A stretch of DNA of 64,000 nucleotides from Labia minor (Eukaryota; Arthropoda; Insecta; Dermaptera; Spongiphoridae). The first letter of the stretch is position 1, and each line of letters opens with the position of its first letter. The stretch is taken from assembly GCA_963082975.1 (NCBI GenBank), contig OY720347.1:45893155-45957154 (forward strand), given 5' to 3'. The notes below the pieces were generated by a model. It saw nothing but the letters and a program-made list of their open reading frames with translations, was not told the DNA's origin and ran no database searches. Shown here one piece after another: positions 10,452-56,064 of this stretch. Made by a program: the position numbers and the translations under genes.

Positions 10452-10565
10452 TCTATATATATAAAAAAAGGTTTTTGTCTGCACATTGCTCAGAATTTAA
10501 AAATTTTTGCATATCTTCGCGTTTCATGACCTCTAGAATCCAAAAGTGACTTTAGAATTTTTCAC

Positions 10566-10632
<67 letters not shown>
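10566..10632. repeat. (CTGT)n microsatellite
   Basis: About 67 bp of near-perfect CTGT repeats within family H copy 1, followed about 60 bp later by GGCTGAACCGATTTCTTTG. Confidence 0.95.
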
Positions 10633-11174
10633 CGGAAAATTACTATTTTATAGACTCAGAATTGGCTGAACCGATTTCTTTGAAATTACATCACAATATT
10701 CTTATATACCTCTAGAGTAACATAGGCTATACATTTTATTAATATCTTATCAATAACCGCAGAAATTAATTTTTTAAAGTTTATATAATTCTCCGTGTTG
10801 TTCATTCAAGAGCAGCTCGCGGCTCACTGTCGGCCTAGCGGAATCATTTCAAACAATGAATTATCATAGAGATTCCCAATCGAAGAATTATTATAATATT
10901 TCCCTTTTATTTTAAATTCTAATATACAAATATCAATTCAATTAAATAATTTATTCTAAAAGTTCTCAATTTAATTAAAATATTTATTAGATCATATTTT
11001 TATCTTAAATTATTTTTTATTTAATTGAATATTTCTTCTTTTCTATAATATATATATAATAATATATAAATTTTATCATTGAATAATAAAAAAAAATATT
11101 ATTTAACCTGAATTAAAATGACTGAATTATATTATCTTTGTTTTTTATTTTAATTTAATTACTCTATTTTTAAT

Positions 11175-11211
<37 letters not shown>

Positions 11212-12539
11212 AAAATTAAAATATGATGATATAAAGTTGTTTTAAATTTTTGACATTTTTAAATTGGGTATATTTTTTAAATTTATTAAAATGTCTTTTT
11301 TATTTATTATGTTTAAAAGATTCATTTTTATTATGTGATATTAATAAAAAATAACGATGCTCTGTGCAAGTCGAATCATGTTGCACATAATTAAATAACA
11401 ATTGCCAAACAAAGAATATAATATTTTTTTAAATTCTTATATTTAAATATCATTTCAATTAAATAATTTATTCTAAAAGGTCTCATTTTAATTAATTTAA
11501 TAAAATATTTAAATCACCATTCAATTTTTTATTAATAGGCTTCTTTTTTTATTTTTAATTTTTAATAAATTCTCTTTTTTTGATATGATATTAATAAAAA
11601 ATAATATTAAATTGTATATATAAATATAAAAATTAGAATATTTGAATTTTTTTAAATTTTAACACATGTAATCAATCATATGCATTAAGAATGGAAAATT
11701 TTTAAAATCAACTTGCTATTAAATTCAGAAAAAAAATACTGATATATAGAATATATAGACTATTCGAATATAATTTAAAACTCTTTCTCTCCTTCTATTT
11801 TAAATTAAAAAAACGGAGTTTTAAGAAATTTAGATGCCATATGCAACATGGGTGGGTAAATGAATTGGGCTGGAAGAGGAGGCAATTTATAATTTTCTTC
11901 TAATTCAGATTTAGGACAAATCGTACAACATTATATCAAATCTCGCTAAGAACATTCAATATTTTTGTACACAAAATATTCAGAGTATTGGCTAAGCGTA
12001 TCACTCACAATCAGTTTATATTGAAATTTATATAAATTAACAAAATAAAAATTTTTATTTGTTTAAATTTTATTATAATGAATCAAAAAAAATTAAATAT
12101 ATAGATCACATGATTAAGACAAGCAAAAAACTTAACAGAAAATAACTGTTGGATGGAGGTCGGACATGACAGAAACTGTAAGCGAAATCTTCATATTGCG
12201 ACGAATAATTTTCAAATCCCCTAGCACCACAGAATTTAAGTTTCTTTTAAGGAAAATAACTATGATCTAAAAAAATTAATAAATGAGCTTAATAATAAAA
12301 AAAACAAATAAATCAATTAATTTAAATTAATACTATTAATGAATGTATATATTGGTAATTTATCTATAGTTTTATACCGTTAATTTTTATAAATTGTCTC
12401 AAGTCTCTATTTTTGCATTTTCTCAAGTTTCATTATAATTAAAAATATTCAATAATAATCTAGCAATGAAAATAAAATACCAAAATGTAATGATCAAGAA
12501 ATATTATACTCTATTATAACATATACAATACTTATAAAC

Positions 12540-13535
12540 TATAGGCGGAGGAAATATTAGGAGATATCATTGCGGGTTCAGGCCAAATCGACCAACATTA
12601 ATTAAGATATTTTCATTATGACAGATATTAGGAACAAAACCGCGAATTCAATATTTCTGTTCACTAATTATTTGTAGACTTTAGTAAAACATACACATGA
12701 CTCAATATAGATCAGCATAAACTTTTTCAAATTTTCAATCTTCAAATTTCTCTTGAAGGTAGTAAAGAAAGAATAAGATGGGGAAATCAATTGTAAAATA
12801 TTAGGTTACTCAGACGACTTAAATATAATAGGAGATTCGGCAATTGCAATTACAGATAGCGAGGAAAATTTAATGGAGGTTTGAAATTAATAGTGATAAG
12901 AAAAAATATTTAGTAACAAAGAGGAAGAGTATTAACATACAAAATCTTAAGATACAAAATGTAGAATTTGAATATGTAGAAAAATTGAATGTAATCACGA
13001 AGGATAATAATATTTGAGAAGAATTTAAATCGGGGTTGCAATCGGGAAACGCCTGTTATCTGCAATAAAGAGGCTTATCTCTTCAAAATTATTATCAAAG
13101 GGAATATATAAAAAGATTATTTTGCCTGTTGCATTATATGGGTGGGAGGCATGGTCTATGACCCTTGGAGATGAGAGTAGATTCAGAGTATTTGAGAATA
13201 GGATTCTTCCCTGCATTTATTGGCCAAAGAAAGATGAGGTCACCGGGTATGAGGGAGACTGTATAACAAGAAATTGCATGGCCTCTCTGCATCTTCAGAA
13301 ATAGTTAGGGTTATAAAAGGGAAAAAGCTGCGATAGGCAGGGCACGTGGCAAGAATGGGAGAGGAAAAAGATATTGGTGGGAAGACCGATTGGAAAACGT
13401 CCGCTTGGAAAACCAATGACGCGTAGGAAGGGACGTAAGAGAGATGGAATAAGGGCTCAGGATAGGGACACTTGGAGAAATGTGGTTGTTGCGGCTAAGA
13501 ACTTTCGAGTATCTTTGAGCCACATAGGTAGATAG
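12540..13535 (+). pseudogene. Decayed LINE reverse transcriptase inside family H copy 1
   Basis: Pieces of a non-LTR reverse transcriptase follow one another in shifting frames. They are CGFRPNRPT at about 12571; the catalytic-box relic GYSDDLNIIGDSAIAI from about 12804, where YADD has become YSDD; INSDKKKYLVTKR; ILPVALYGWEAWSMTLGDE at about 13120-13175, the conserved block after the palm; and a C-terminal tail KRPLGKPMTRRKGRKRDG...RNVVVAAKNFR up to about 13520. Many stops and frameshifts, and a large deletion before the YSDD box, show it is dead. The order and spacing match the last third of a LINE ORF2. Confidence 0.85.
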
Positions 13536-13713
13536 ATATAACATATACAATAATAATATATATAATTAATATAGTGATTAAATTAAAATATATTTTTTAA
13601 ATAAGAACACAAAAAGAAATGAATGTTTTATGTAATATACTGATTGAAACAAAATGGATGAAAACCTTTTAATACTTTCAACCACCAAATACTATGTACA
13701 ACTCGGGGGTACA

Positions 13714-13758
13714 GGGGGCGGAGCCCCCGTCTAGGTGTGAAGAGCGCCGAAGGCGCTC
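13714..13758. other. Twin GC-rich hairpins at family H 3' end
   Basis: Two perfect stem-loops lie 13 bp apart: GGGGGC-GGA-GCCCCC and GAGCGCC-GAA-GGCGCTC. The same pair occurs at 36093-36140 (minus), 45708-45747 and 56010-56055. By position the second matches the Helitron 3' terminator hairpin. The role of the first is unknown. Confidence 0.8.
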
Positions 13759-13769
13759 TGAGCAGCTAG

Positions 13770-14328: not shown

Positions 14329-14845
14329 CTGTAGTTTCTCTACTCGACTATCTAGCAAATCTGAATTTGATTAATTGACATAAAATAAATTTAAATTAAA
14401 TTAAATTAATTAAATTATAAATTAAAATTAATAAATAATATTAAACCAGCGCGTTTTTGGCTCTTTGTTGATGGCGCGTGATTGCCAGACAACGTGTTAA
14501 AAATGAATTCCGGTACTTTCAGCGATTCAATCAAGCTGAAAATCTATATATAGCAGTTTTATACAATTTTTAATCATGTGGAAAAATATCAAATATATAT
14601 CTTTATTTTTATGGTCAGTTTAGAGGAAAAAAAATCAAAACGTAGCAGGTAATGACCCACTTCCAATAATTCCCCTGTACCAAATTTCATTATTCTAGCT
14701 CAAACCATTTTTGCATAATCTTGTCACACACACACAGACAGATATTTTTCCTCAACTTTAGTGAAAATGACTCAGGGACCTTCAAAACGTATAAAAACAT
14801 CAAAATCTCGACATCGAAAATTTTCATGATCTCTGACGAGTTAGT
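14329..14845 (+). mobile_element. Family A copy (517 bp)
   Basis: It follows the consensus order seen at 26399-26986: a decayed 5' end resembling CTGGAGTGTCTCCACTCGAC, ACTATCT, an AT-rich block, CCAGCGCG...TGATGGCGCGTGATTG, the TTTCAGCGATTCAATCAAGC core, TATATCTTTATTTT, CAAACC.TTTTTGC.TAATCTTG, an ACACACACAGACAGA run, and an end at CTCTGACGAGTTAGT. It is shorter than other copies through an internal deletion. Non-coding. Confidence 0.75.
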
Positions 14846-15796
14846 AACAATTTATTTCATTCTTTTGTTATATTTTGATATTTTAAAAATTACAATTTGA
14901 ATAATTTCTTATAATTACGTTATACAATAGAATAATAAAATCTTTTCAAAATGTGTTGGTATACATAGTGATTTATCTACTGAACATAAAAATTAAATTA
15001 ATAAATAAAAAAAAATATTCTATAAAAATTCTCATATATGTTAATAATTAAAATATTTATAATATTTTTATGTATTTAAATTAAAAATACATATGAGAAA
15101 ACATTAATAATACTTGGTTGCGTGAAATGAAAACATGAGAGTAAAAATAAATAAATAAAAAAAAATTATTTGTTCACTTAAAAACATGTATATTTCCATT
15201 TCCCCTGTAGTTACAAATATTACAGACATGGGGCTTTAATGAATCAGGGGGTTTGACTCTCTAGATAGGGTCCGTTCGATTTTGAATTTACATATAAACG
15301 TATAACGGACACCCTTGGGAAATGGTTTAAAGAGACGTGGGAGAAAAGATTTGTAAACTAATTTGCTTACTCAGGAGAATCAGAATTTGTAAACTCAGGG
15401 AAATTGACTGATTTTCAGAAGGTAAAATCACTTTTGGTTCGTAGTGCCCACATTCTTTTGATAAATTTTAAATTTGTCATTCTTTTTTAAATTAATTCAA
15501 ATTTTTTCTTAGACGCACAGGACTATAATCAGGATACGGATAGTATTCCTGTAATTTACCATAATTTTTTTTTTAAATAAAATGTTCTTAGCAAAGTTAG
15601 GTTATAGTTTTGATCAAGTGTTTAAACCTCCCGTCCGCTTAGATTTAAGATTAAATAGTTAATTTCAAATGGCTAAATTGTTAATTTATCTAAAAAGTCA
15701 AAAAAATTAATTTAATTATTTATTTTTTTTATAATTGTAATTTCATAAAAAAAAATAAAGGACGTGTACACTATATTATAAAATAAATAGATAATA
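14846..15796. other. AT-rich spacer with one balanced patch
   Basis: AT-rich. The stretch at about 15190-15440 is better balanced but shows no open frame with a recognisable product and no repeat match within the window. Confidence 0.35.
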
Positions 15797-16677
15797 GGTT
15801 GTCAAATATCTCCCTTCCGCCTTTTTCGCGGCTATGTACAAAGCGCTACAGAGCTCGTATCTGGTAATACTATACATCATTTGAAAGGTCTTGACATAAC
15901 CTATAAAACGACGCTAAGCATGATTAGTTTGGATATTGCGTTCAACAGTTATAGACGAGTAAACATGGAGTTCACTAAAGCCGAAATTCGCGTTATTTTA
16001 AAGTTTCCCTTCGTTAAAGGCAAATCCGCTAGAGAAACGTTGCGTGAGATTAATGGTGTTTTGGGGGATGATATTCTATCATTTCGAACCGCGGAGGAAT
16101 GGTTTCGACGATTCAGAGCCGGTGAAAACGACACCATGGTTTTCCTGTATGTTTGGTGGGATTGGAAGGGAATCATCCACTATGAGCTGCTCCCATATGG
16201 CCAGACGCTTAATTCTACCATCTACTGCGAACAACCGGACCGCTTGAAGCAGGCAATCGACCAGAAGCGTCCAGAATTGGCCAACAGGAAGGGTGTAGTG
16301 TTCCACCAGGACAACGCCAGACCACACACCTCGTTGATGACTCGTCAGAAGCTACGGGAGCTCGGATGGGAGGATTTATCACATCCACCATATAGCCTGG
16401 ACATAGCGCCAAGTAATTACCACCTGTTCCTGTCCATGGCGAACGCCCTTGGTGGTGTAAAGTTAGACTCAAAAAAGGCTTGTGAAAAGTGGCTGTCCGA
16501 GTTCTTCGCAAATAAGGAAGGGGGTTTCTACGAGGGGGTTATTATGAAGTTGCCGTCTAGATGAAAACAGATTATCGAACAAAACGGCGCATATTTGAAC
16601 TAAATCCGATCACTGTAACACTTTTTATAAAGCATTGAATAAAGAGCAAAAAAGCGGAAGGGAGATATTTGACAACC
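15797..16677 (+). mobile_element. Internally deleted mariner with perfect inverted repeats
   Basis: Ends begin GGTTGTCAAATATCTCCC and match perfectly over 24 bp, flanked by TA (15795-15796 and 16678-16679). The unit is 881 bp, against about 1.3 kb for full mariners. The deletion is within the transposase gene, joining the first helix-turn-helix to the middle of the catalytic domain. The perfect inverted repeats suggest it moved fairly recently, presumably using transposase from an intact relative. Confidence 0.95.
15965..16604 (+). pseudogene. Mariner transposase, internally deleted and catalytically broken
   Basis: The start is the ATG at 15965 (MEFTKAEIRVILKF), because that is where the mariner helix-turn-helix begins. 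The frame is also open upstream from 15881. Residues 1-57 form the first HTH, with RTAEEWFRRFRAGENDT at its end. The next residues jump straight to VWWDWKGIIHYELLPYG, so the second HTH and the first catalytic Asp are deleted in frame. The second Asp is kept in HQDNARPH. The third, 35 positions on, is Asn (IAPSNYH instead of the usual SDYH). A TGA at 16562-16564 truncates the frame, and 13 codons of normal C-terminus follow to the TAA near 16602. Three independent lesions mean it cannot catalyse transposition, though the HTH could still bind inverted repeats. Confidence 0.9.
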
Positions 16678-21073: not shown

Positions 21074-21643
21074 TACTATCTCGCCACTATGTTTATTTAT
21101 ATATTACTATGCGACCACGAAAATTTTCGATCTCGAGATTTTTATGTTTTTATACGTTTTAAAGGACCCTGAGTCATTTTCACTGAGGATGAGAAAAATG
21201 TTTGTCGGTCTGTGTGTATTTAGACAAGATTATGCAAAAACGGTTTAAGTTAGAATAATGAAATTTGGTACACGGGCATTATTCAAAATTCGTAGTTTTC
21301 TATCAACTTTTGAGAAATGTAGCTCATCTGGAATTGGCCATAACCTATCACGTTTTTATTTTTTTCCTCTAAACAGAGAGTATAAATAAAGATATATGTT
21401 TGATAATTTTTCAAATAATTAAAAATTGTATAAAACTGCTATATATAGAATTTCAGCTTGAATGAATCGCTGAAAGTACCGGAATTCATTTTTTAACACG
21501 ACTGGTGAAGACGCGCCCGCACGTGACGTGGTGCCATCAACAAAGAACCAAACACGCGCTGGTTTAATATAATTTAAATATAATACGATATATGTTAATT
21601 AATCCAATTCAAAATTGCGAGATAGTCAAGTGGAGACACTCAA
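21074..21643 (-). mobile_element. Family A copy (minus orientation)
   Basis: The 3' end is at 21074 (ACTATCTCG, with the terminal hairpin disturbed by extra bases) and the 5' end at about 21643 (TGCGAGATAGTCAAGTGGAG, then ACACTC). The interior carries all family blocks: CCCTGAGTCATTTTC, GTCTGTGTGTATTTAGACAAG, AAACGG, the TTGAATGAATCGCTGAAAG core, and the CACGTGACGTGGTGCC segment. A short open frame at 21045-21248 crosses it and is not meaningful. Confidence 0.85.
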
Positions 21644-26398: not shown

Positions 26399-26986
26399 CT
26401 GGAGTGTCTCCACTCGACTATCTCGCAAATTTGAATTGGATTAATTAACATATATTATATTTAAATTAAATTTAATTAATTATAAATTAAAATTAATAAA
26501 TAATATTTATTTAACCAGCGCGTGTTTGGCTCTTTGTTGATGGCACCACGTCATGTGCTGGCGCGTGATTAGCAATTAAAAAATCAATTCCGGTACTTTC
26601 AGCGATTCAATCAAGCTGAAATTCTATATTTAGCAGTTTTATACAATTTTTAATCATGTGAAAAATTATCAAACATATATCTTTATTTTTACGGTCACTT
26701 TAGAGGAAAAAAAAATCAAAACATTGTAGGTATTGACCCTCTTCCGGTTGAGCTATATTTCTCAAAATTTGATAGAAAACTACGAATTTTGAATAATGCC
26801 CATGTCCAAATTTCATGATTCTAGCTCAAACCGTTTTTGCGTAATCTTGTCTAATTACACACACATATACATTTCTTTCAACCTTAGTGAAAATGACTCA
26901 GGGACCTTTAATTAAAACGTATAAAAACACAAAAATCTCGACATCTAAAATTTTCGTGATTGCAATACTATCTCTGACGAGATAGT
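26399..26986 (+). mobile_element. Family A, best full-length copy (588 bp)
   Basis: It starts CTGGAGTGTCTCCACTCGAC (26399) and ends in the perfect stem-loop ACTATCTC-TGAC-GAGATAGT (26967-26986). GAGTG-TCTC-CACTC at the 5' end is another small stem-loop. ACTATCTCG occurs inverted near both ends (about 26417 and 26978). The interior has an AT-rich block, the GTGTTTGGCTCTTTGTTGAT segment, a TTTCAGCGATTCAATCAAGC core and an ACACACATATACAT run. No open frame has a recognisable product. Whether it is a TIR element, a Helitron-type or a SINE-like element is not settled: the inverted repeats are short and I see no clear target duplication. Confidence 0.8.
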
Positions 26987-31140: not shown

Positions 31141-31520
31141 ATTTGTCATTTCATTACACGTTCAAAGAAAAAAAATAGAAAATCAATTTAATTCAAAATA
31201 GAAGATGAATATGATCAGAAAAGTCAACATGAATATTTAATAAATTTAAAAGAAAAAAATAAGGATAATATTGGTGAGAAATAAATTAAATATTAATAAA
31301 AGATGAAGATGATCACTATTATTTTCATAATATAGGATATTTATTTATTACTATTTATTTACTGGATGAACCCGTTGCAAACGGCGTTTGCAATTTCAGT
31401 TTGAAATGATTTTATCGTAGAGTGCAGCAATTAATCAAATAGTTCTTTGAAAACAATATTTTTTATATACCAATGATCATTTATTAGTAATCTGCCTTGC
31501 GGAGTTTTCTTTAAATTTTG

Positions 31521-31991
31521 GTAGACAAGATTACGCAAAAACGGTTTGAGCTAGAAGCATCAAATTTTGTATACGGGCATTATACAAAATTCGGAGTTTG
31601 CTATCAACTTTTGAGAAATGTAGCTCATTCAGAAGAGGGTCATTACCTAAAACGTTTTTATTTTTTCTCCTCTAAAGTGACCGTAGAAATAAAGATATAT
31701 GTTTGATAGTTTTTCACATACTTAAAAATTGTATAAAACTGTTATATATAGAATTTCAGCTTGATTGAATCGCCAGAAGTACCAGAAATAATGTTTTAAC
31801 ACGTTGACTTGCAATCACGCGCCAGTACCTGACGTGGTGCCATCAACAAAGTGCCAAACACGCGCGGGTTTAATAAATATTATTTATTAATTTTAATTTA
31901 TAATTTAATTAATTAAATTTAATTTAAATATAATATATTATGTTATTTAATATAATTCAAATTGCAAGAGAGTCGAGTGGAAACACTCCAG
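31521..31991 (-). mobile_element. Family A copy, 3'-truncated (minus orientation)
   Basis: The 5' end lies at 31991 (CTGGAGTGTTTCCACTCGAC on the minus strand) and the element runs down to about 31521, stopping at the GTAGACAAGATTACGC block. The last ~110 bp with the terminal hairpin are missing. The core and the CACGCGC...GTGGTGCC segment are well kept. Confidence 0.85.
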
Positions 31992-36083: not shown

Positions 36084-37785
36084 CTAGCTGCCCCGAGCGC
36101 CTTCGGCGCTCTCCGCACCTAGACGGGGGCTCCGCCCCCTGTACCCCCCCGAGTGGTACATAGTATTTGGTTAAGAGTAGTAAAAGGTTTTCATCCATTT
36201 TGTTTCAATCAGTATATTACATAAAACATTCATTTCTTTTTGTGTTCTTATTTAAAATATATTTTAATTATATATATTATTATTGTATATTATTGTATAT
36301 GTTATATCTATCTATCTCTGTGACTCTAAGGAACTCGAAAGTACTTGGCCGCAGCAACCACATTTCTCCAAGTGTCCCTATCTTGAGCCCTTGCCCCATC
36401 TCTCTAACGTCCCTTCCTACGCGTCCTTGGTCTTCCAAGCGGACGTTTTCCAATCGGTCTCCGCACCGTTTTCCAATCCAATATCTTTTTCCTCTCCCAT
36501 TCTAGCCACGTCTCCTGCCTATCGCAGCTTTTTCGCTTTTATAACCCTAACTATTTCTGAAGATGCATAGAGGTCATGTCATTCCTCGTTATGCAGTCTC
36601 CGCCATTCCCCGGTGACCTCACCTTTCTTTGGCCAATATATGCTGGAAAGAATACTCTGAATCTACTCTCATCTCCCAGTGTCATAGACCATGCGTCCCA
36701 CCCATATAATACAACAGGCAGGCAAAATAATTGGTTTATATATTTTAATTTTGATTCCTTTTGATAATAATTTTGATGAGATAACCCTCTTTACTGCATG
36801 ATAACAGGCGTTTCCCGATTTCTACCTCGATTTAAATTTTCTCAAATATTATTATCCTTCTACATATTCAAATTCTACATTTTGTATATTAAGATTTTGT
36901 TAATAAATATATTTTCTTATCACTATTAATTTCAATCTGAATTAGAAGAAAATTATAAATTGCCTCCTATTCCAGCCCATTTACCTATCCAGGCATCTTA
37001 ATTTCGTAACACTCCGTTTTTTTTTAAATTTAAAATAGAAGGAGAAAAATAGTTTTAAATTATATTCGAATGGTCTATTATATTCTATATATGAGTATTT
37101 TTTTCTGAATTTAATACTAAGTTGATTTTCAAAATTTTCCATTCATTATGCATATGATTGATTACATGTGTTAAAATTTAAAAAAATTCAAATATTCTAA
37201 TTTTTAATTTTATATACAATTTAATATTATTTTTTATTAATATCATATCAAAAAAGAGAATTTATTAAAAATTAAAAATAAAAAAAGAAGCCTATTAATA
37301 AAAAAATATAAAAAAGACATAAATTTAAAACATCTCGTTTATATCATTTGTCTAAAAAACATATTTTAATTAACCAAGAAATCATTTTTGCACTTAAAAT
37401 ATATTTGTAATTAATAATTGAAACAAAAACAAAAATAATATAATTTAGTCATTTTAATTGACGATTAGAAAATATTTTTGTATTCATAAAAGTTTAAAAA
37501 TAATATATTCTGTTTTTTTAAGCTTTCATTTTCAAATAGAAAAGAAGAAATATTCAAATATATATAAAGAATATAAATATATAAAGAATTAAGTTAAATA
37601 TGATCTAAATATTTTATTAAATAAATTTAAATGACAACTTTTAGAATAAATTATTTAATTTAATTGATATTTGAATATTAGAATTTAAAATAAAAAGTGA
37701 AATATTATAATAATTTTTAAATTCTGAGCACAGAGCATCCAGCTGCAATATGCAGACAAAAACCTTTTTTATATATATACATAGA
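36084..37785 (-). mobile_element. Family H copy 2 (Helitron-like), nested in the hAT
   Basis: On the minus strand it begins TCTATGTATATATATAAAAA after an A and ends in CTAG before a T. The same twin hairpins as copy 1 lie just inside the 3' end (36093-36140). The 1702-bp unit shares its 5' start (AAGGTTTTTGTCTGC), central AT-rich blocks and LINE-derived part with copy 1, but lacks the CTGT array and much of the reverse transcriptase. It inserted into an AT array without a target duplication, as Helitrons do. Confidence 0.75.
36310..36900 (-). pseudogene. LINE reverse-transcriptase C-terminal relic in family H copy 2
   Basis: The minus strand carries the same tail as 13100-13530 (GGGTGGGACGCATGGTCTAT, then GACACTGGGAGATG; the GGAAAACGTCCGCTTGGAAG block; the AGAAATGTGG block), with shifted frames. 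Plus-strand open frames here (36167-36505, 36283-36570, 36576-36764) are antisense shadows of this relic. Confidence 0.8.
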
Positions 37786-38285: not shown

Positions 38286-40028
38286 AGCTTCTTATAAGGG
38301 TATATATAAGATTTCAAATTTTTGCCACCAGCGCCTCTATGAGCTAGTATGGTAACTAAACTATTTTTAATTAATTAGCATTTCCTGGACACACCTTACC
38401 AATTAGCGGTTTTCTAAAGGAAGTCTGACATGCCCTGAGACCTACTGAATATACATAAAAAATTTCATAAGAATCGGTCAAGCCGTTTCGGAGGAGTATG
38501 ATTTCAAAGTTTTGTGACACGAGAATTTTATATATAAGATATATACGAAAGGGGGCGCTGATTTCTCAGTTGCCCCTAGGCGCAAGAACCTCACGGTACG
38601 CCACTGCACACAGAGAGACATTCTTCTCAACCTTAGCTGAAATTCTATATATAGCAGTTTTATACAATTTTTAATTATTTGAAAAATTATCAAACATATA
38701 TCTTTATTTATACTCTCTGTTTAGAGGAAAAAAATGAAAACGTGATAGGTAATGGCCAATTCCGCATGAGCTACATTTCTCAAAAGTTAATAGAAAACTA
38801 CGAATTTTGAATAATGCCCGTGTACCAAATTTCATTATACTAACTTAAACCGTTTTTGCATAATCTTGTCTAAATACACACAGACCCACAAACATTTTTC
38901 TTAACCTCAGTGAAAATGACTCATGGACCTTCAAAACTTATAAAAATATCAAAATCTCTACATGGAAAATTTTCATGATCGCAATACTATCTCTGGCGAG
39001 ATAGAAAAAAATAAAATAAATTATTTATTTAAAATTTCACTTTACAAATTTTCAAGTCTCTCTCAATGTACCAGGCATTATTATACTTAAATTTAATAGT
39101 TAATTTAATATCTTGAAATTTATTAAAAAACAATAACAAATGGCTGTAAATAAATTGGTATTTTGTAAAAATTTTAATTCAATTTAAGTTAATGAGAGTA
39201 AAAAAACAAACTTTTTATTTTTAGACAAAGAATAACGAACATAGGTGTAATTCGCAAATTTGATTAGACTTTTGCCGGAGTGTTTCATAAAAACTCCAAC
39301 CATTCAGAATGTAAAAATTATATATGGATATTTCTCGTTTACAATAGAAGCTTCTCGGTTTTTAGAATCTACTCAATTTAGATGAAACAATTTTCCTTGG
39401 ATAATAGCTGGAAAATAATAATAATAAAAAGTAAAGAAAAAAAAACATCTAAAATATTCTTTTTCTTTTGTTTCTTTTCTTTCATCAATGGATTTAATTA
39501 ATTGGAAAAATAATCATTTTTTTATATATATCTTTTTGTGTGTCTACAAAATATCAAAGTAAAATCGTGATGTAAAAAAATAATTCATCAATTCATTGTT
39601 TTTTACATTAACAGTTTTGAATGTCAATAAACATTTATTTATTCGAATTTCGCAATGAAATCTGTAATTCAAATTTTCTGAAAATAATATTTAGAACTGA
39701 TTACACTCGCATAACAAAAATTTCGAAATTAGTCACATTAAGAACAATTGAAAAATATTCGATATTTCGATTTGACTGAATTTTGTATTTCATTTTCTTT
39801 AAATAAAACAAAATATATAATAAATTATAAATCAATTGAAAGTAATAATTGAGTCATAATACCATGCTAAAATTGATGTACATGTTGTTTATTAATTAAA
39901 AGGAAAAATAAACTTATGATAGGGACTTCCGTAGGCGTCACTATCAAAAATCTCAAATATTTCTCGAATCTAGGATGATATATGTCAAAATTGGGCAGCA
40001 ATTAGTATCGCGATTTAGTTTCAAAACA

Positions 40029-41560: not shown

Positions 41561-41604
41561 TTTGCAAAATTTAAAACCTTTACTTTCATTTTTAAGTCAA
41601 AATT

Positions 41605-41878
41605 TAAAAAAATAATTCAGGTACTTTCAGCGATTCAATCAAACTGAAATTCTATATATAGTAGTTTTATTCAATTTTTAATCTTGTGAAAAGTTATCAA
41701 ACATTTATCTTTTTTTTTACTGTCAGTTTAGAGGGAAAAAAAATGAAAACGTGGTAGGTAATGGTCCTCTTCCGAATGAGCTATATTTCTCAAAAGTTGA
41801 TAGAAAACTACGAATTTTGAATAATATATGTGTACCAAATTTTATTATTCTAGCTCAAACCGTTTTTGCGTAATCTTG
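41605..41878 (+). mobile_element. Family A partial copy
   Basis: It runs from the AATTCAGGTACTTTCAGCG block to CGTTTTTGCGTAATCTTG and then stops. Both ends are missing. It lies 80 bp before a full copy in the same orientation. Confidence 0.8.
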
Positions 41879-41958
41879 CGTAAAAAATCATGGGTGAGCT
41901 AGCAAAATAATAATTTCTTACAAATAAATTTCAGAACTTTAATTAAACAAAAAATTAG

Positions 41959-42558
41959 CTGGAGTGTCTCCACTCAACTATCTCGCAATTTGAATAGGAT
42001 TAAATAACATTATATATTATATTTAAATTAAATTTAATTTATTATAAATTATAAATAATAAATATTAAACCAGCGCATGTTTGGCTTTTTTTGATGGCAC
42101 CACGTCACGTGTTGGAGCGTGAGATTTGCAGTGTTAAAAAATTAATTCTGGTAATTTCAGCGAATCAATCAAGCTGAAATTTTATATATAGCAGTTTTAT
42201 ACAATTATTAATCATGTGAAAAATTATCAAACGTATATCTTTATTTTTACGGTCACTTTAGAGGAAAAAAAATCAAAACGTTGTAGGTAATGACCCTCTC
42301 CCGGTTGAGCTTCATTTCTCAAAAGTTGATAGAAAACTACGAATTTTGAATAATGCTCATGTACCAAATTTCATCATTCTAGCTCAAACCGTTTTTGCGT
42401 AATCTTGGTTACATACACACATACACATACACATACATACACAGACATTTTTCTCAACCTTAGTGAAAATGATTCAGGAACCTTCAAAACGTATAAAAAC
42501 ATCAAAATCTTAACATCGAAAATTTTCGTGATCGCAATAATATCTCTTACGAGATAGT
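41959..42558 (+). mobile_element. Family A full-length copy (600 bp)
   Basis: It starts CTGGAGTGTCTCCACTCAAC and ends ATATCTCTTACGAGATAGT. All interior blocks are present, including an expanded ACACATACAC run. It is close to the copy at 26399-26986, and the slightly mismatched terminal hairpin shows decay. Confidence 0.85.
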
Positions 42559-44044: not shown

Positions 44045-44335
44045 TCTATGTAACTATCTATCTCTGTAGGTCTACGGAACTCGAATGTTCTTGGCCACAA
44101 CAACCACATTTCTCCAACTGTCCCTATCCTGAGTCATTACCATCCAACTCCTACTCTCTCACGTCCCTTCCAGTATTGCTCACCCACTGCGTCCTTGGTC
44201 TTCCAGGTGGATGTCCCCCAATCGGCCTCCCCACGAAAATATTTTTCGCCATTCTTTCCTCTTCCATTCTAGCCACGTGCCCTGCTCATCGCATCTCGAT
44301 TTTATAATTCTAACTAGGTCTGAAGATGCAATCAT
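44045..44335 (-). pseudogene. LINE reverse-transcriptase C-terminus, stand-alone copy
   Basis: The minus strand reads a GHVARM-like block, then GRPIGGHPPGRPRTQW and RDVRE, then frameshifts before a relic of the RN...A(K/Q)E tail. This is the same LINE tail carried by family H, but here without the twin hairpins and with a longer in-frame stretch. It may represent an independent LINE insertion. Confidence 0.75.
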
Positions 44336-44512
44336 GTCATACAATTCTCCACTATTTGATAAATATAAATAAACATAAACTATTTCAACATTAACAATAA
44401 TAATAAGTACAAATTATAGGTCAGACTTAAAGATGAACATTTAAAAAAAAACAATTTGAGTATTTCAATATTATATTAATTCATCTAATTATTATATATA
44501 AAAAGATTAATC

Positions 44513-45289: not shown

Positions 45290-45757
45290 ATCACTCAAGT
45301 TAGGCTAAGCAGACGTCTTAAATATTATAAGAGATTCGGCAATTGCAATTACAGATAGCGAGGAAAAATTAATGGAGGTTTGAAATTAATAGTGATAAGA
45401 AAAAATATTTAGTGAGACAAAGAGGAACAGTATTAACATACAAAATCTTAATATACAATTTAAATCGAGGTATCAATCGGGAAACGCCTGTTATCATGCA
45501 GTAAAGAGGCTTATCTCATCAAAATTATTATCAAAGGGAATCAAGACCATGGACGCATAGGAAGGACGTAAGAGAGATAGGACAAGGGCTCAGGATAGGG
45601 ACATTTGGAGAAATGTGGCCAAGAACTTTCGACTATCTTTGAGCTATATAAATAGAAGAATACTACTTTTAACCAAATACGATGTACCACTCGGGGGTAC
45701 AGGGGGCGGAGCCCCCGTCCAGCTGTGAAGAGCGCCGAAGGCGCTCGGACCAGCTGG
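45290..45757 (+). mobile_element. Family H copy, internally deleted
   Basis: It starts within the LINE part (AGACGTCTTAAATATTATAA with GGAGATTCGGCAATT-like sequence, the relic of the DDLNIIGDSA box), keeps scraps of the tail, and ends with both hairpins and CTGG before T (45754-45757). The end is CTGG rather than CTAG, still within the Helitron CTRR rule. The 5' terminus is missing. Confidence 0.75.
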
Positions 45758-46748: not shown

Positions 46749-48306
46749 TCTTTATATAGTATAAAATAAAGTCGATTTCTCTGTCCCTATAAACACTTCA
46801 ATCTTTAAAACTACGCAACGGATTTTGATGGTTTTTTTTAATAGATAGAGTGATTGAAGAGGAAGATTTATATGTATAATATCAGAATTTATCCACTATT
46901 TAATTATTAATTAATTAATTATGTTTTCATTCAAAGACAACGCGGCTCACTTCAATCAACATATCAAAATTAATATTAAATGAATACAAAAATATTTTCA
47001 AAATGTCAATTAAAATGACTATTATATTATTTTTTGTTTTTGTTTCAATTATTAATTACAACTAAATTTTAAGTGAAAAAATAATTTCTTGGTTATATAA
47101 AAATTAAAATATGATTTTTTTGACAAATGATAAAAAGGAGATGTTTTAAATTTTTGTCTTTTTTATAATGAGTATTTTTTTAAATTTGTTTTAAATCAAA
47201 ATTATTGTATTTTATTAGATCTTTTTATTAATAGGCTTCTTTTCTTATTTTTAATTTTTAATAAATTCTCTTTTTTGATATGATGCTTTATTAAAAAATA
47301 ATATTAAATTGTATATAAATTTAAAAATTAGAATATTTAAATTTGTTTAAATTTTAACACATGTAATCAATCATATGCATAAAGAATAAAAAATTTTGAA
47401 AATCAACTTGGTATTAAATTCAGAAAAAAAAAATACTGATATATATATATATATATATAATATATAGACTATTCGAATATAATTGAAACTCATTCTCTCC
47501 CTCTATTTTAAATTAAAAAAAACGGAGTGTTAAGAAATTAAGATGCCTTATGCAACATGGATGGCTAAATGAATGGGGCTGGAAGAGGAGGCAATTAATA
47601 TTAATATTAATCCCTTAAAATAAACTTATCTAATTCTGTGGTCTAGGAGATTTGAAAATTATTAGACACAACATGAAGATTTCGCTTACAGTTTCTGTTC
47701 TGTTCGACCTCCAACCAACACTTATTTTCTCCCAAGTTTATTTCAATCGAATTTTCAAATTTTGATCTTCAAATTTGTCTTGAAGGTAGTAAAGAAAGAG
47801 TAAGATGCGGAAATCAATTGTAAAATATTAGGTTACCCAGACGACTTAAATATAATAGGAGATTCGGCAATTGCAATTACAGAGAGCGAGGAAAAATTAA
47901 TCGAGGTAGGAAAAGAGTTGGGGTTTGAAATTAATCGTGATAAGAAAAAATACTTAGTAACAAAGAGGCACAGTATTAACATACAAAATCTTAATATACA
48001 AAATGTAGAATTTGAATATGTAATAAAACTGAATGTAATCTCGAAGGATAATAATATTTGAGAAGAAGGTTGCAATCGGGAAACGCATGTTATCATGCAG
48101 TTAAGAGGGTTATCTCATCAAAATTATTATCAAAGGGGATAAAAATTAAAATATACAAAACAATTATTTTGCCTGTTGTATTATATGGGTGGGGGCGTGG
48201 TCTATGACCCTGGGAGATGAGAGTAGATTCAGAGTATTTATAGAATAGGATTCTTTCCAGCATTTATGAATCAAAGAAAGATGAAGACACCGGGGATGGC
48301 GGAGAA
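46749..48306 (+). mobile_element. Family H copy 3, 3' end missing
   Basis: A TC start (TCTTTATATAGTATAAAATA) follows an A. It continues into CTCTGTCCCTATAAAC and ACTACGCAACGGATTTTGAT, then the AT-rich blocks shared with copy 2 (AATTAAAATGACTA, TTTTTGTTTTTGTTTCAATT, GACAAATGAT), and then the LINE part. No twin hairpin was found. The ~47610-47735 segment is inverted relative to copy 1 (12140-12260), so this copy has rearranged internally. Confidence 0.65.
47762..48300 (+). pseudogene. LINE reverse-transcriptase relic in family H copy 3
   Basis: GYPDDLNIIGDSAIAI begins at 47831 (YADD has become YPDD). An unbroken stretch continues through VGKELGFEINRDKKKYLVTK and HSINIQNLNIQNVEFEYV, the longest in-frame piece of this LINE in the window. 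Frameshifts follow, then a relic of the LPVVLYGW block near 48170. The region coding the palm residues before the catalytic box is deleted. Confidence 0.85.
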
Positions 48307-49986
48307 TGCTTAGACATTAATAGACATGCATAGACATTTTGATTATAAGATAATAATGGTAGAAAAGGGGATTGTCATTATATAAACGCCCCAACGAATT
48401 TATTAATATTACGAGTCAAACTCGATAATAAGGAGTATTTTTCGGTGAACCAGGTGCTATATATATTACAATAGATATATCATTTAAGTAATTAATTTAA
48501 ATATTGTATACAATTTGATAAGTATACCATTAATATATTTATTAATAAAAATTATTTCTAGTTAAATAATAGGAGTATTTTTTTATTATGTTCAATTTCG
48601 TTTAATTGAAATAAAAACCCAAGTGGTGGTGTGTCATAATCACTTTTATTTTATTCTATCTAGATATTATATTCGTTAATTTTATTAAATTCATTCAAGA
48701 TAATCTAACAAGAAACCGCTACAAAGGGAATGAATATTTCCGAAATGCCCAAAGGGTACTCCCTCTCCTTTACCACACACCCAGGCTCAAAGAATCCGTA
48801 AAAATTTAATATCTAAATTCTTGAAAAAAGAAAAGAAATGTATGTTCATAAAATGAAAATGGAATATTTTCTTTAAATTTCCCTATCGGCCTATCTTTAG
48901 TTTAATTTAATATAATAATTTAAATTTCATATTTATAACAAAAATAATTAATATTTAAACATTTAATATATGTAATAATAAATCTTATTAATGTGTTTAT
49001 ATCTAGGTGTTATATATTTTATTAATATTATAGCTCATATTTGATGTATTCGAATATAAAAATGATGATTTTATCATTATCAGAATCGTTCAAATAACTA
49101 ATATTTTGTTTTATATATAATAATAAATATAATAATACATTTTTGTGGTAAACGATAATTTACAATAATAATAATAATATAAATATAAAATAGATAAATA
49201 ATATATATATATATATTCTATTAAAAGTTCAGTAAATGGAACCCAAATGGAATCAGCAAAACAAATAAGAAAAATGGAATAGATAGTTGCCACAACAGTC
49301 TTATGCATTTATGTCAAATTTGAAATCGGTCTTCAAATAGTGACAGATTCGTGTAAGTAGTGTAGAGTAAGTGCCGCGCATATTGACATTGGATCAAAAC
49401 CGCCGGAAAATGAGAATTTGAATTTTTCAAGAGAATCTAAACTTTAGACCTGGGGTTGCCAACGTGGGGCGTACACCCCTCAAGGAAAAATGGAAAAATT
49501 TAATGAGCGGTCAGAAATATATACATCATTTAAATTTGTCTGAATATTTATTATAACAGTTAAAATATATTTTAAAAAAAATATTTTTCATTTTCCTCCA
49601 TTTCTTGCGAGATAAAGAAATTGTTAAATATAATAATAAAACTCTTAATCGCATGAAAATCAAATTCACATTTTAACATTTTAATCTCTTTTTCTAATTT
49701 GAGAAGTTATTATGAGATAAAATTGAATAATGGAGTATTTTTTTCTAACTTCATTATTTTTAAGATACCCTTCTCCTTTATAAATTTTACTAATTTATTC
49801 CACCATCGATTTTGAATTGGTTGTTTTTTGAATGAATTATGTCATTACTAATATTGATGGACATCACACAAACAGAAAACTTAATTTTATACTCCAGCAC
49901 TCACAGACTTTCTTTTGATACTTTATAGCTGCTGATTATATACCAATGTTTGCTTAACTATATAATGTATTCTCTCTAAGTAAATA
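48307..49986. other. AT-rich stretch
   Basis: AT-rich. CCTGGGGTTGCCAACGTGGG (about 49449) followed by GCGTACACCCC looks like one end of a hAT-type element, but no partner end was found. The patch at about 49330-49500 is otherwise unremarkable. Confidence 0.4.
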
Positions 49987-54209: not shown

Positions 54210-55267
54210 GTTGGCGCCCAAACTACAAACAAGTGGTAACGGTATTTTGGACTCTCCACGGGAGTTTTCGTCGAGTCGCGAAATTCGCCAGCGTTTTCAA
54301 GAAGATTATCTGCGTGGGGACGCTATCTTCCCAAGGTCAACAGACAAGCGACCTCGCGGCAGCCATTCCCATCAACTACAAGATATATTTAAATAGCTAA
54401 AAAAATAGTTTCTTTTTTTAAATTAAATTATAAAAATTGCAAAAATATCGAGGACATTAATAGCAATTTATTGAAATGGAATATTAAAGTATTAAACTTT
54501 AATTTGAATGATAAAATTAGAAATTTATTATTTATCATGATATATTTTATTATTCAGATAATATAAATATTTAAATTAAAACATTTATTATCTATATATT
54601 TAATACGATAGTGTCCGTCTGTACGCAAAAAACTCCAGAGCCTAAACTACAAGGAGTAAGGTAACCAAATTTTTCTGAGGTGAAGGGTACCTCAAATGAG
54701 ATGAAAAATAAAAAAGAAATTAGAATCTTAGGTAACTCCTGAGCTGAGCTGCGGGTGTTCCATTTTCCAGAAATATATATAAAGGCGAGTGTTTGTATGA
54801 ATGTAATTTGTTTACTTTTTTGCTGTCATAGAAACAGATATATATATATATATAATTAGAACCCCTCTCTCTCTCCCTCTATTTAAAATTTTAAAAAATG
54901 GAGTGTTCTAGCCAAATTAAGAAATTTAAATTCCTTATGCAACATTGATAGGTAAATGAATTGGACTGGAAGAGGAGACATATGATTAGAGAAATTGGGG
55001 AAAAATCAACCGAAATGTAATTAAACAAAAAAATTCAAGAATTATGATACGGATACGACTTACATACAAAATGTAGAATTTGAAAATGTATAAATATTTA
55101 AATACTTAAGATCTCTAATCACAAAGGATAATAATCTTCGAGAAGAATTTAAATCGACGTTGTAATTGAGTAACGCCTGTTAATATGCAGTAAAGGGGCT
55201 TATCTCATCAAAGAGGATCAAAATTAAAATATATATAAAACAATTATTTTTCATGTTGATCGATGAC

Positions 55268-55453
55268 TAGGGTGACCATATTTCGAAAACACCAACCCGG
55301 GACAAACGGTATACCTTTTTTTTAGAACTAAATTGAAAAAATTTTGAAAAAAAAATTACGAAATGTCCTAAATATTGAAAAAACGGGACAGTAGGGTGTC
55401 CCGAAGTCATTTTTGGGACAGAGCACCTAAAGACGGGACGTTTGGTCAACCTA
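55268..55453. mobile_element. hAT MITE nested in family H copy 4
   Basis: A 186-bp unit with ends TAGGGTGACCA (left) and TAGGTTGACCA (right, minus strand). The octamer TCGATGAC lies immediately outside both ends (55260-55267 and 55454-55461). TAGGGTGACCA-type ends are widespread among animal hAT MITEs. The inner part has repeated GGGACA motifs in both orientations. Confidence 0.9.
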
Positions 55454-55461
55454 TCGATGAC

Positions 55462-55850
55462 TCTGGGAGACGAGAGTAGATTTGGAGTATTTGAGATTAA
55501 TATTGTTCGCAGCATTTATAGGCCAAAAGAAGATGAGGTCACAGGGGGATGTCGGAGATGGCATAACGAGAAATAATGTCCAGATATAGTTAAGGTTATA
55601 AAATCAAGAAGGCTGGGATGGGAAGGGGACGTGGTTGGAATTGGAGAAAATAGAAATTGGGAGAAACCGATTGGGAAACATCCGGTGGAAGACCAATGAC
55701 CAAGGTGGGTGGACAATGAAGGAAGGGACATGGGAGAGATGGGACAGGGTAGGATTTGGTTGTAGCTCAGGATAGGGACGCTTAGAGAAATGTGGATGCT
55801 GCGGCTAAGAACTTTCGAAAACTCTAGAGACACAGAGTTAGATAAATATA
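55462..55850 (+). pseudogene. LINE reverse-transcriptase tail in family H copy 4
   Basis: It continues the LINE relic after the MITE (GACTCTGGGAGACGAGAG onward, the GGTTATAAAATCAAGAAGGC block, the GAAACATCCGGTGGAAGACC block, then AGAAATGTGG and CTAAGAACTTTCG). Frames are broken throughout. The minus-strand open frame at 55516-55860 is its antisense shadow. Confidence 0.75.
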
Positions 55851-56064
55851 ACATATACAATAATAATATATAATTAATTTACTGATTAAATTAAAATATA
55901 TTTTACAAGAAAACAAATACATGTCTTATCTACTTATTGAAACAAAATGGATGAAAACATTTTACATACAGACTTTCAACCAAATACTATGTATCACTCG
56001 GGGGTACAGGGGGCGGAGCCCCCGTCTAGGTGTGAAGAGCGCCGAAGGCGCTCGGAGCAGCTAG

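Follow-up and report, generated by a model that had tools for sequence, protein, structure and literature searches.

Very probably, a LINE retrotransposed once into a member of a large and mostly non-autonomous family of Helitron1-type elements, and the composite was then multiplied. The window, i.e. the whole stretch of 64,000 nucleotides that was analysed (G000:C5:45893155-45957154; GC content 27%), contains four copies with a readable 3' end, and LINE sequence is found inside all four. Copy A (10452..13769, forward strand) is complete from TC to CTAG, has a length of 3318 bp and is inserted between A and T. Copy B (36084..37785, reverse strand; 1702 bp) has a CTAG end. Copies C (45300..45757, forward strand) and D (54850..56064, forward strand) are 3' parts of which only the 3' end is readable: C is of the CTGG type and its LINE tail is strongly deleted, and D carries the most diverged LINE tail, about 72-77% to that of A. 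A fifth copy, made of backbone and LINE (47222..48312, forward strand; 85-89% to A), stops short of the 3' end. Another dispersed repeat family, about 0.5 kb long with ends near the ACTATCTCTGGCGAGATAGT palindrome and with many copies in the window and in the other loci, occupies 14329-14831, 21110-21500, 26399-26961, 31512-31932, 38635-38983 and 41604-42533, and a 257-aa open frame at 15791-16564 was recognised by eye as resembling a mariner-type transposase, which makes an animal source likely.

Genome-wide counts refer to the 604 Mb assembly of 71 contigs. The closer sample consists of the four window copies and the first 28 copies in the C1 list, a consecutive rather than a random choice (n=32), and 11 copies of this sample that have both ends were used to compare borders. 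Checks by position on C1 cover the region below 9.65 Mb.

The 3' ends at 13769, 36084, 45757 and 56064 had been described as twin perfect hairpins followed by CTAG or CTGG and then T, and these positions are exact. Hairpin 2, GAGCGCC-GAA-GGCGCTC (GAGCGCCGAAGGCGCTC; 13742..13758, forward strand, in copy A), is present without a mismatch at 13742(+), 36095(-), 45730(+) and 56037(+), while shuffled sequence is expected to give 0.01 matches at up to 3 mismatches. In all four copies, GGGGGC-GGA-GCCCCC (hairpin 1, GGGGGCGGAGCCCCC; 13714..13728, forward strand, in copy A) stands upstream of it, and 7 nt, CTAG (three copies) or CTGG (one copy), and T stand downstream; in copy A, the terminal CTAG occupies 13766..13769 on the forward strand. 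The genome contains 6669 exact copies of hairpin 2 and none of the reversed pattern that was used as a control. The layout of hairpin, 7 nt, CTRG and T is found in 6318 of the 6669 copies and in 32/32 of the closer sample. The canonical Helitron1 rule for the 3' end, CTRR followed by a host T, holds for the hairpin-2 family, and the hairpin itself, 17 nt in length and ending 11 nt before the 3' end, fits the Helitron1 spacing of 10-12 nt. DNA folding of the 3' ends gave z values of -3.3 to -4.6 in all four ends folded. The hairpin pattern also occurs at 17 loci in viral contigs; a blastn search of phage sequences with the LINE tail gave zero matches.

The two 5' ends that can be resolved in the window start with TC after A, as the preliminary description had it: both read A|TCTAT, at 10452(+) and at 37785(-). 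The 5' terminus of copy A, TCTATATATATAAAAAAAGGTTTTTGTCTG (10452..10481, forward strand), is preceded by A. Its 30-mer has 2288 exact copies genome-wide, and A stands before 1913 of these. The other 375 as well as the 351 hairpin-2 copies that deviate from the CTRG-T pattern are assumed to result from decay or nesting. Eleven sampled copies start with the 30-mer or a near variant of it; A precedes ten of them and T precedes the remaining one (L040), and T follows the 3' end in 11/11 two-ended copies. Among the 5' ends listed on C1 below 9.65 Mb, 28 of 32 have a same-strand exact hairpin no more than 7 kb away (0.036 for random positions). Part of the sequence to the left of TC in copy B is common to L030 and L036, so that TC is no clean border in the two B-type copies, window copy B and L030, and the pair of ends in L034 spans two LINE tails. 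The 5' region of copy A holds a long TCTG/CTGT microsatellite (10567-10632), and similar short TCTG runs are seen in other copies; by eye, TGCTCAG at 10487-10493 is complementary to CTGAGCA at 13758-13764, forming a 7-nt subterminal inverted repeat.

Target-site duplications at the borders would have spoken against a Helitron. The 11 two-ended copies have no direct repeats there beyond matches of 2-8 nt in AT runs. An empty A|T site for the whole Helitron was sought from the flanks of the two-ended copies, and none was established: L026, the starting point, has a repeat in its flank, and its right flank proved not to be that repeat, and the right flank of L040 recurs in L044, where the left flank does not continue. 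In the copies examined, the hairpin-2 family has canonical Helitron borders.

The interior of the element in the window is indeed LINE-derived, as had been noticed. In copy A it is a 5'-truncated, internally deleted LINE fragment with broken frames (12531..13536, forward strand), which runs from the reverse transcriptase (RT) region to the natural 3' end with its GATA tail; the endonuclease region of a LINE would sit upstream of such a part. The fragment is 71-81% identical to the free LINE copies L086-L089. With a probe built from free LINE copies, and at least 80 nt counted as presence, LINE sequence was scored in 27 of the 32 sampled copies; among the others, a stretch of 61 nt is left in L035, and L020, L029, L032 and L042 are free of it. 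Eleven copies have an identical LINE start at probe position 81 (90 in window copy A), and L039 has a later one. The same internal stretch of the LINE, from about 373 to 509, is missing in 11/11 copies that keep the LINE 5' start. At its right side the fragment ends with its own GATA-repeat tail, as in the free copies L086-L088, and is followed by Helitron backbone; the tail is located about 230 bp before the Helitron 3' end. Pfam assigned no family to the LINE tails.

The fragment is bracketed by a 16-bp direct repeat, TATAACATATACAATA, which is the target-site duplication of the LINE. Its left copy lies at 12515..12530 and its right copy at 13537..13552, immediately 3' of the GATA tail, both on the forward strand. 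The 16-mer is exact on both sides in window copy A, L026 and L027; the right copy has one change in L018, L025 and L037; L033 combines an exact left copy with a broken right one; and the left copy is a variant in L028, L034, L040, L041 and L045. A search that allowed for the variant and one change found the left 16-mer just before the LINE start in 11/11 copies keeping that start.

The exact right junction of LINE and Helitron occurs 3119 times genome-wide. When a 106-aa peptide of the LINE tail was used as a query, 148 of the best 150 of 27,569 candidates had an open frame of exactly 106 aa, and the remaining two had frames of 117 and 173 aa. As 148/150 scored tails share this frame, a broken fragment, and no working LINE, was multiplied. 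Of the junctions listed on C1 below 9.65 Mb, 32/49 have an exact hairpin 175-216 nt downstream, and 17/49 have none within 400 nt. A LINE 23-mer specific to Helitron-borne tails has the hairpin downstream in 27/41 cases in the same region, as compared to 0.2% for random positions. One LINE tail in L034 runs into Helitron backbone and has no hairpin within 400 nt, even with mismatches.

A state before the arrival of the LINE can also be read. On the other strand of L030, an older relative has the sequence of copy A positions 12238-12530 joined directly to that of 13537-13654, with a single 16-mer; a mariner-like stretch follows and hides its 3' end. With this empty site as a query, 40 candidates scored out of 1111 gave 43 rows of matches: 24 cross the insertion point (one being the query itself), 14 end at the 16-mer or within it, and 5 are uninformative. 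The identity of the LINE-free relatives to the L030 query is no higher than 72-79%. Of two LINE-free relatives with the 3' end read, L091 has a decayed hairpin pair in the same layout and ends with CTTG-T, and L090 has a decayed first hairpin only. The empty site, the 16-bp repeat and the LINE-free relatives together give the order of events: the Helitron came first, the LINE was inserted next, and amplification followed. According to the preliminary description, the LINE tail seemed to have been captured and then multiplied together with the Helitron. Its second half agrees with the 3119 junctions; capture at an end does not agree with the direct repeat, the LINE's own 3' tail and the empty site, all of which argue for retrotransposition into the interior. 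In the copies examined, the LINE is thus an internal insertion with a target-site duplication in a Helitron.

It might be asked whether the LINE arrived once or several times. Separate insertions or captures in the subfamilies represented by A, B, the CTGG type and D would account for the divergence of the LINE tails, which reaches about 28% between A and D, for a lineage (L022 minus strand, L031, L038) that lacks the normal LINE 3' junction, and for window copy C, in which the 16-mer was searched for and not found. Such independent events are nevertheless very unlikely. The same 16-mer follows the LINE tail directly in window copies A, B and D, in L021, in L043 (with one change) and in L085, and the L022-type junction looks, by eye, as if an internal deletion had occurred at a short CACT(T/C)GG match.

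Alternatively, the Helitron might have taken up host DNA that contained a LINE, by read-through at the 3' end or by template switching. Flanking DNA is taken up when the terminal hairpin is bypassed, as is described for Helraiser in PMC4778049, and one locus may be of this kind: at L085 (G000:C4:62276700-62277880), a LINE-bearing end of the CTGG type breaks off within hairpin 2 and runs straight into a RepHel leader. The junction looks like a natural product of 3'-end bypass or fusion. The fusion does not appear to travel as a mobile unit, as only one of 40 scored candidates (of 1307) spans it, namely the locus itself. Host-DNA capture as the source of the LINE tail is slightly less probable still than repeated insertion: capture would not produce a direct repeat exactly at the LINE borders, and the LINE-free relatives have the same backbone on both sides of a single 16-mer.

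The presence of LINE sequence in 27/32 hairpin copies would also be expected if the family were a LINE whose own 3' end had evolved the twin hairpins, its Helitron look being due to 5' truncation. This was the alternative offered in the preliminary description, and the free LINE copies contradict it. A C-terminal LINE consensus was used as the query; among 150 scored of 36,320 candidates, the matches had 62-72% identity and open frames of up to 431 aa. Five free LINE 3' ends (L086, L087, L088, L039(+) and the window copy at 44051..44347 on the reverse strand, the last with 400 nt read) end in GATA repeats followed by differing flanks and are hairpin-free in 5/5 cases (248-400 nt of flank read); a sixth, in L027, was left out as its flank is unreadable. 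No exact hairpin lies within 1.5 kb of the four consensus-matched LINEs listed on C1 below 9.65 Mb, L086 included; 5/5 copies matched by the 106-aa tail peptide in the same region do have one. LINEs ending in twin hairpins, which were proposed as a check, were thus not encountered among the free copies examined, which make up a small share of the LINE family. Furthermore, the 5' ends of the hairpin elements are constant at TC, mostly after A, rather than variably truncated, and LINE-less elements with a helicase share nearly the same 3' terminus. Of the features of a LINE as the mobile unit, neither a border target-site duplication nor variable 5' truncation is seen at the element borders; only the inner LINE fragment shows both. 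A LINE with self-evolved hairpins is hardly credible. Equally improbable is a Helentron- or HINE-like element of the Helitron2 group using LINE-derived parts: Helentrons carry a LINE-type endonuclease (described in PMC4067079), but the termini here are TC and CTRG with insertion between A and T and not into a T tract, and the LINE part runs from the RT region to the 3' end and is broken.

The internal insertion of a LINE into a Helitron leaves the question of which proteins move the composite. No Rep or helicase had been visible in the window, and queries from two RepHel families likewise gave no match there at E<=0.01. In the genome, PF14214 has 104 matches, some in open frames of up to 2181 aa. 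The RepHel loci L046, L047, L049, L063, L064 and L067 form a family and are 96-99% alike across their aligned parts. In the C1 RepHel copy, the stretch from the helicase end to the terminus is matched over at least 960 of 1005 nt at four more places, and only its last 218 nt are common to about 30 further places. Three of the four longer matches (C4, C6 and C10) were read, and the helicase-bearing elements there and on C1 all have nearly the 3' terminus of window copy A, followed by T (4/4): two out of about 65 positions are changed, and the C4 element shows a few changes more. The PF14214 search listed a same-strand Rep match upstream of the elements on C1, C4 and C10, and none near the one on C6. 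The search for a Rep/helicase-bearing relative with the same termini, suggested earlier, has therefore succeeded for the 3' terminus, nearly the same, and not for the 5' one: in the C1 and C10 RepHel elements, roughly 1.25-1.4 kb of sequence was read ahead of the ORF, and the A-type 5' terminus (with the TCTATATATATAAAAAAAGG start) was not seen in it. The frames with Rep matches at C1, C4 and C10 are short (302-524 aa), with internal stops in 2/3, and could possibly reflect introns. The long intact RepHel frames belong to families other than the one sharing the terminus. Just upstream of the LINE tail, L021 and L043 (both CTGG) and the C4 locus L085 have a relic of a helicase C-terminus (E 2e-12 to 2e-13), to which Pfam assigned no family.

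The intact RepHel at C5:34916909 is followed by a hairpin end that was considered as the element's own and rejected, as it belongs to a separate miniature of 333 bp (L077, 191-523). The miniature runs from TC to CTAG and holds no LINE; its A|TC start is located some 0.5 kb beyond the stop codon of the intact 2039-aa RepHel frame. Two further RepHel groups were encountered. Seven loci (L052-L058) of another Helitron family are 99.94-100% identical over 3.5 kb, have 69-bp coding repeats before the Rep domain and are read as a very recent burst. At C5:46739897-46792979, some 0.8 Mb away from the window, Rep-domain pseudogene matches of identical score follow one another at intervals of 9817, 9817, 5689 and 5687 bp, which is read as a tandem array containing Helitron Rep sequence.

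By combining these observations, a process can be proposed. A 5'-truncated LINE copy very probably retrotransposed into a Helitron of the family, leaving the 16-bp duplication and the GATA tail. RepHel proteins acting in trans might then nick the DNA at A|TC and displace a single strand as far as the terminal hairpin and CTRG, so that the dead LINE would be copied as passenger DNA. By analogy with Helraiser, as presented in PMC4778049, the hairpin would serve as the terminator and CTAG as the nick site. Internal deletions and point changes would then have split the LINE-bearing lineage into the CTAG and CTGG subfamilies. Judged from the nearly identical 3' terminus, trans-mobilisation of the LINE-bearing copies by the RepHel family is likely.

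The folded 3' ends have one more property. The terminal CTAG or CTGG is predicted to lie in a stem with an internal CTAG or CCAG in 4/4 ends; in copy A, the fold and the counts that follow point to the CTAG at 13731..13734 (forward strand) as the partner. Among 36 copies with an exact hairpin, the internal and terminal tetranucleotides are CTAG/CTAG in 32 and CCAG/CTGG in 4, and mixed pairs are absent. The four CCAG/CTGG copies form one subfamily, so the change on both sides may be a single event. At C1:2497630 the spacer is TTCACAG, and the outer stem would be a perfect palindrome if its upstream side were of the CTGG type. In the guide sequences of IS200/IS605 elements, internal DNA folds onto the cleavage site. 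It is conceivable, although doubtful at present, that the terminal CTRG pairs and co-varies with the internal tetranucleotide as the base of hairpin 2, presenting the site to the HUH nuclease in a guide-like manner. If general, such pairing would explain how CTRR is recognised in Helitrons and where new 3' ends come from.

The family holds a warning for repeat annotation, as it was probably in the form of Helitron cargo, rather than by retrotransposition, that thousands of the LINE-like tails of this genome moved. The literature search brought no paper on the present family to notice, and no claim of unpublished status is made. Canonical Helitrons of the Helitron1 group (Helraiser/Helibat, insect Hel-2), as characterised in PMC4778049 and PMC4344730, likewise have a 5' TC, a 3' CTRR, an A|T target, a hairpin 11 nt before the 3' end and large numbers of non-autonomous copies. 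Unlike them, the present family has two consecutive GC hairpins, a resident dead LINE fragment with its own target-site duplication, and a terminal CTRG that is itself predicted to be paired. The inner fragment matches ordinary 5'-truncated LINE insertions in its truncation, simple-repeat tail and target-site duplication; unlike these, the mobile unit follows Helitron rules at its borders and has no target-site duplication in the copies examined. A LINE-derived part is likewise present in other rolling-circle elements, namely Helentrons, HINE and DINE-1; PMC4067079 leaves open whether it goes back to the insertion of a LINE or to transduction of DNA. The present family differs from Helentrons and HINE, with their T-tract insertion and non-CTRR termini, in having CTRG-T and A-TC borders, and its LINE part is a broken RT/3' tail carried as a passenger. 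It is a clear case of the LINE-landing route asked about for Helentrons in PMC4067079, with both the scar and the empty site readable, and the composite has still multiplied to thousands. The chimeric Helitrons of Fusarium (hAT or Hornet in FoHeli; PMC5148889) are likewise mobile elements inside a Helitron, for which the authors report there no evidence of transposition of the chimera. Unlike the FoHeli chimeras, the Helitron/LINE chimera described here exists in thousands of copies.
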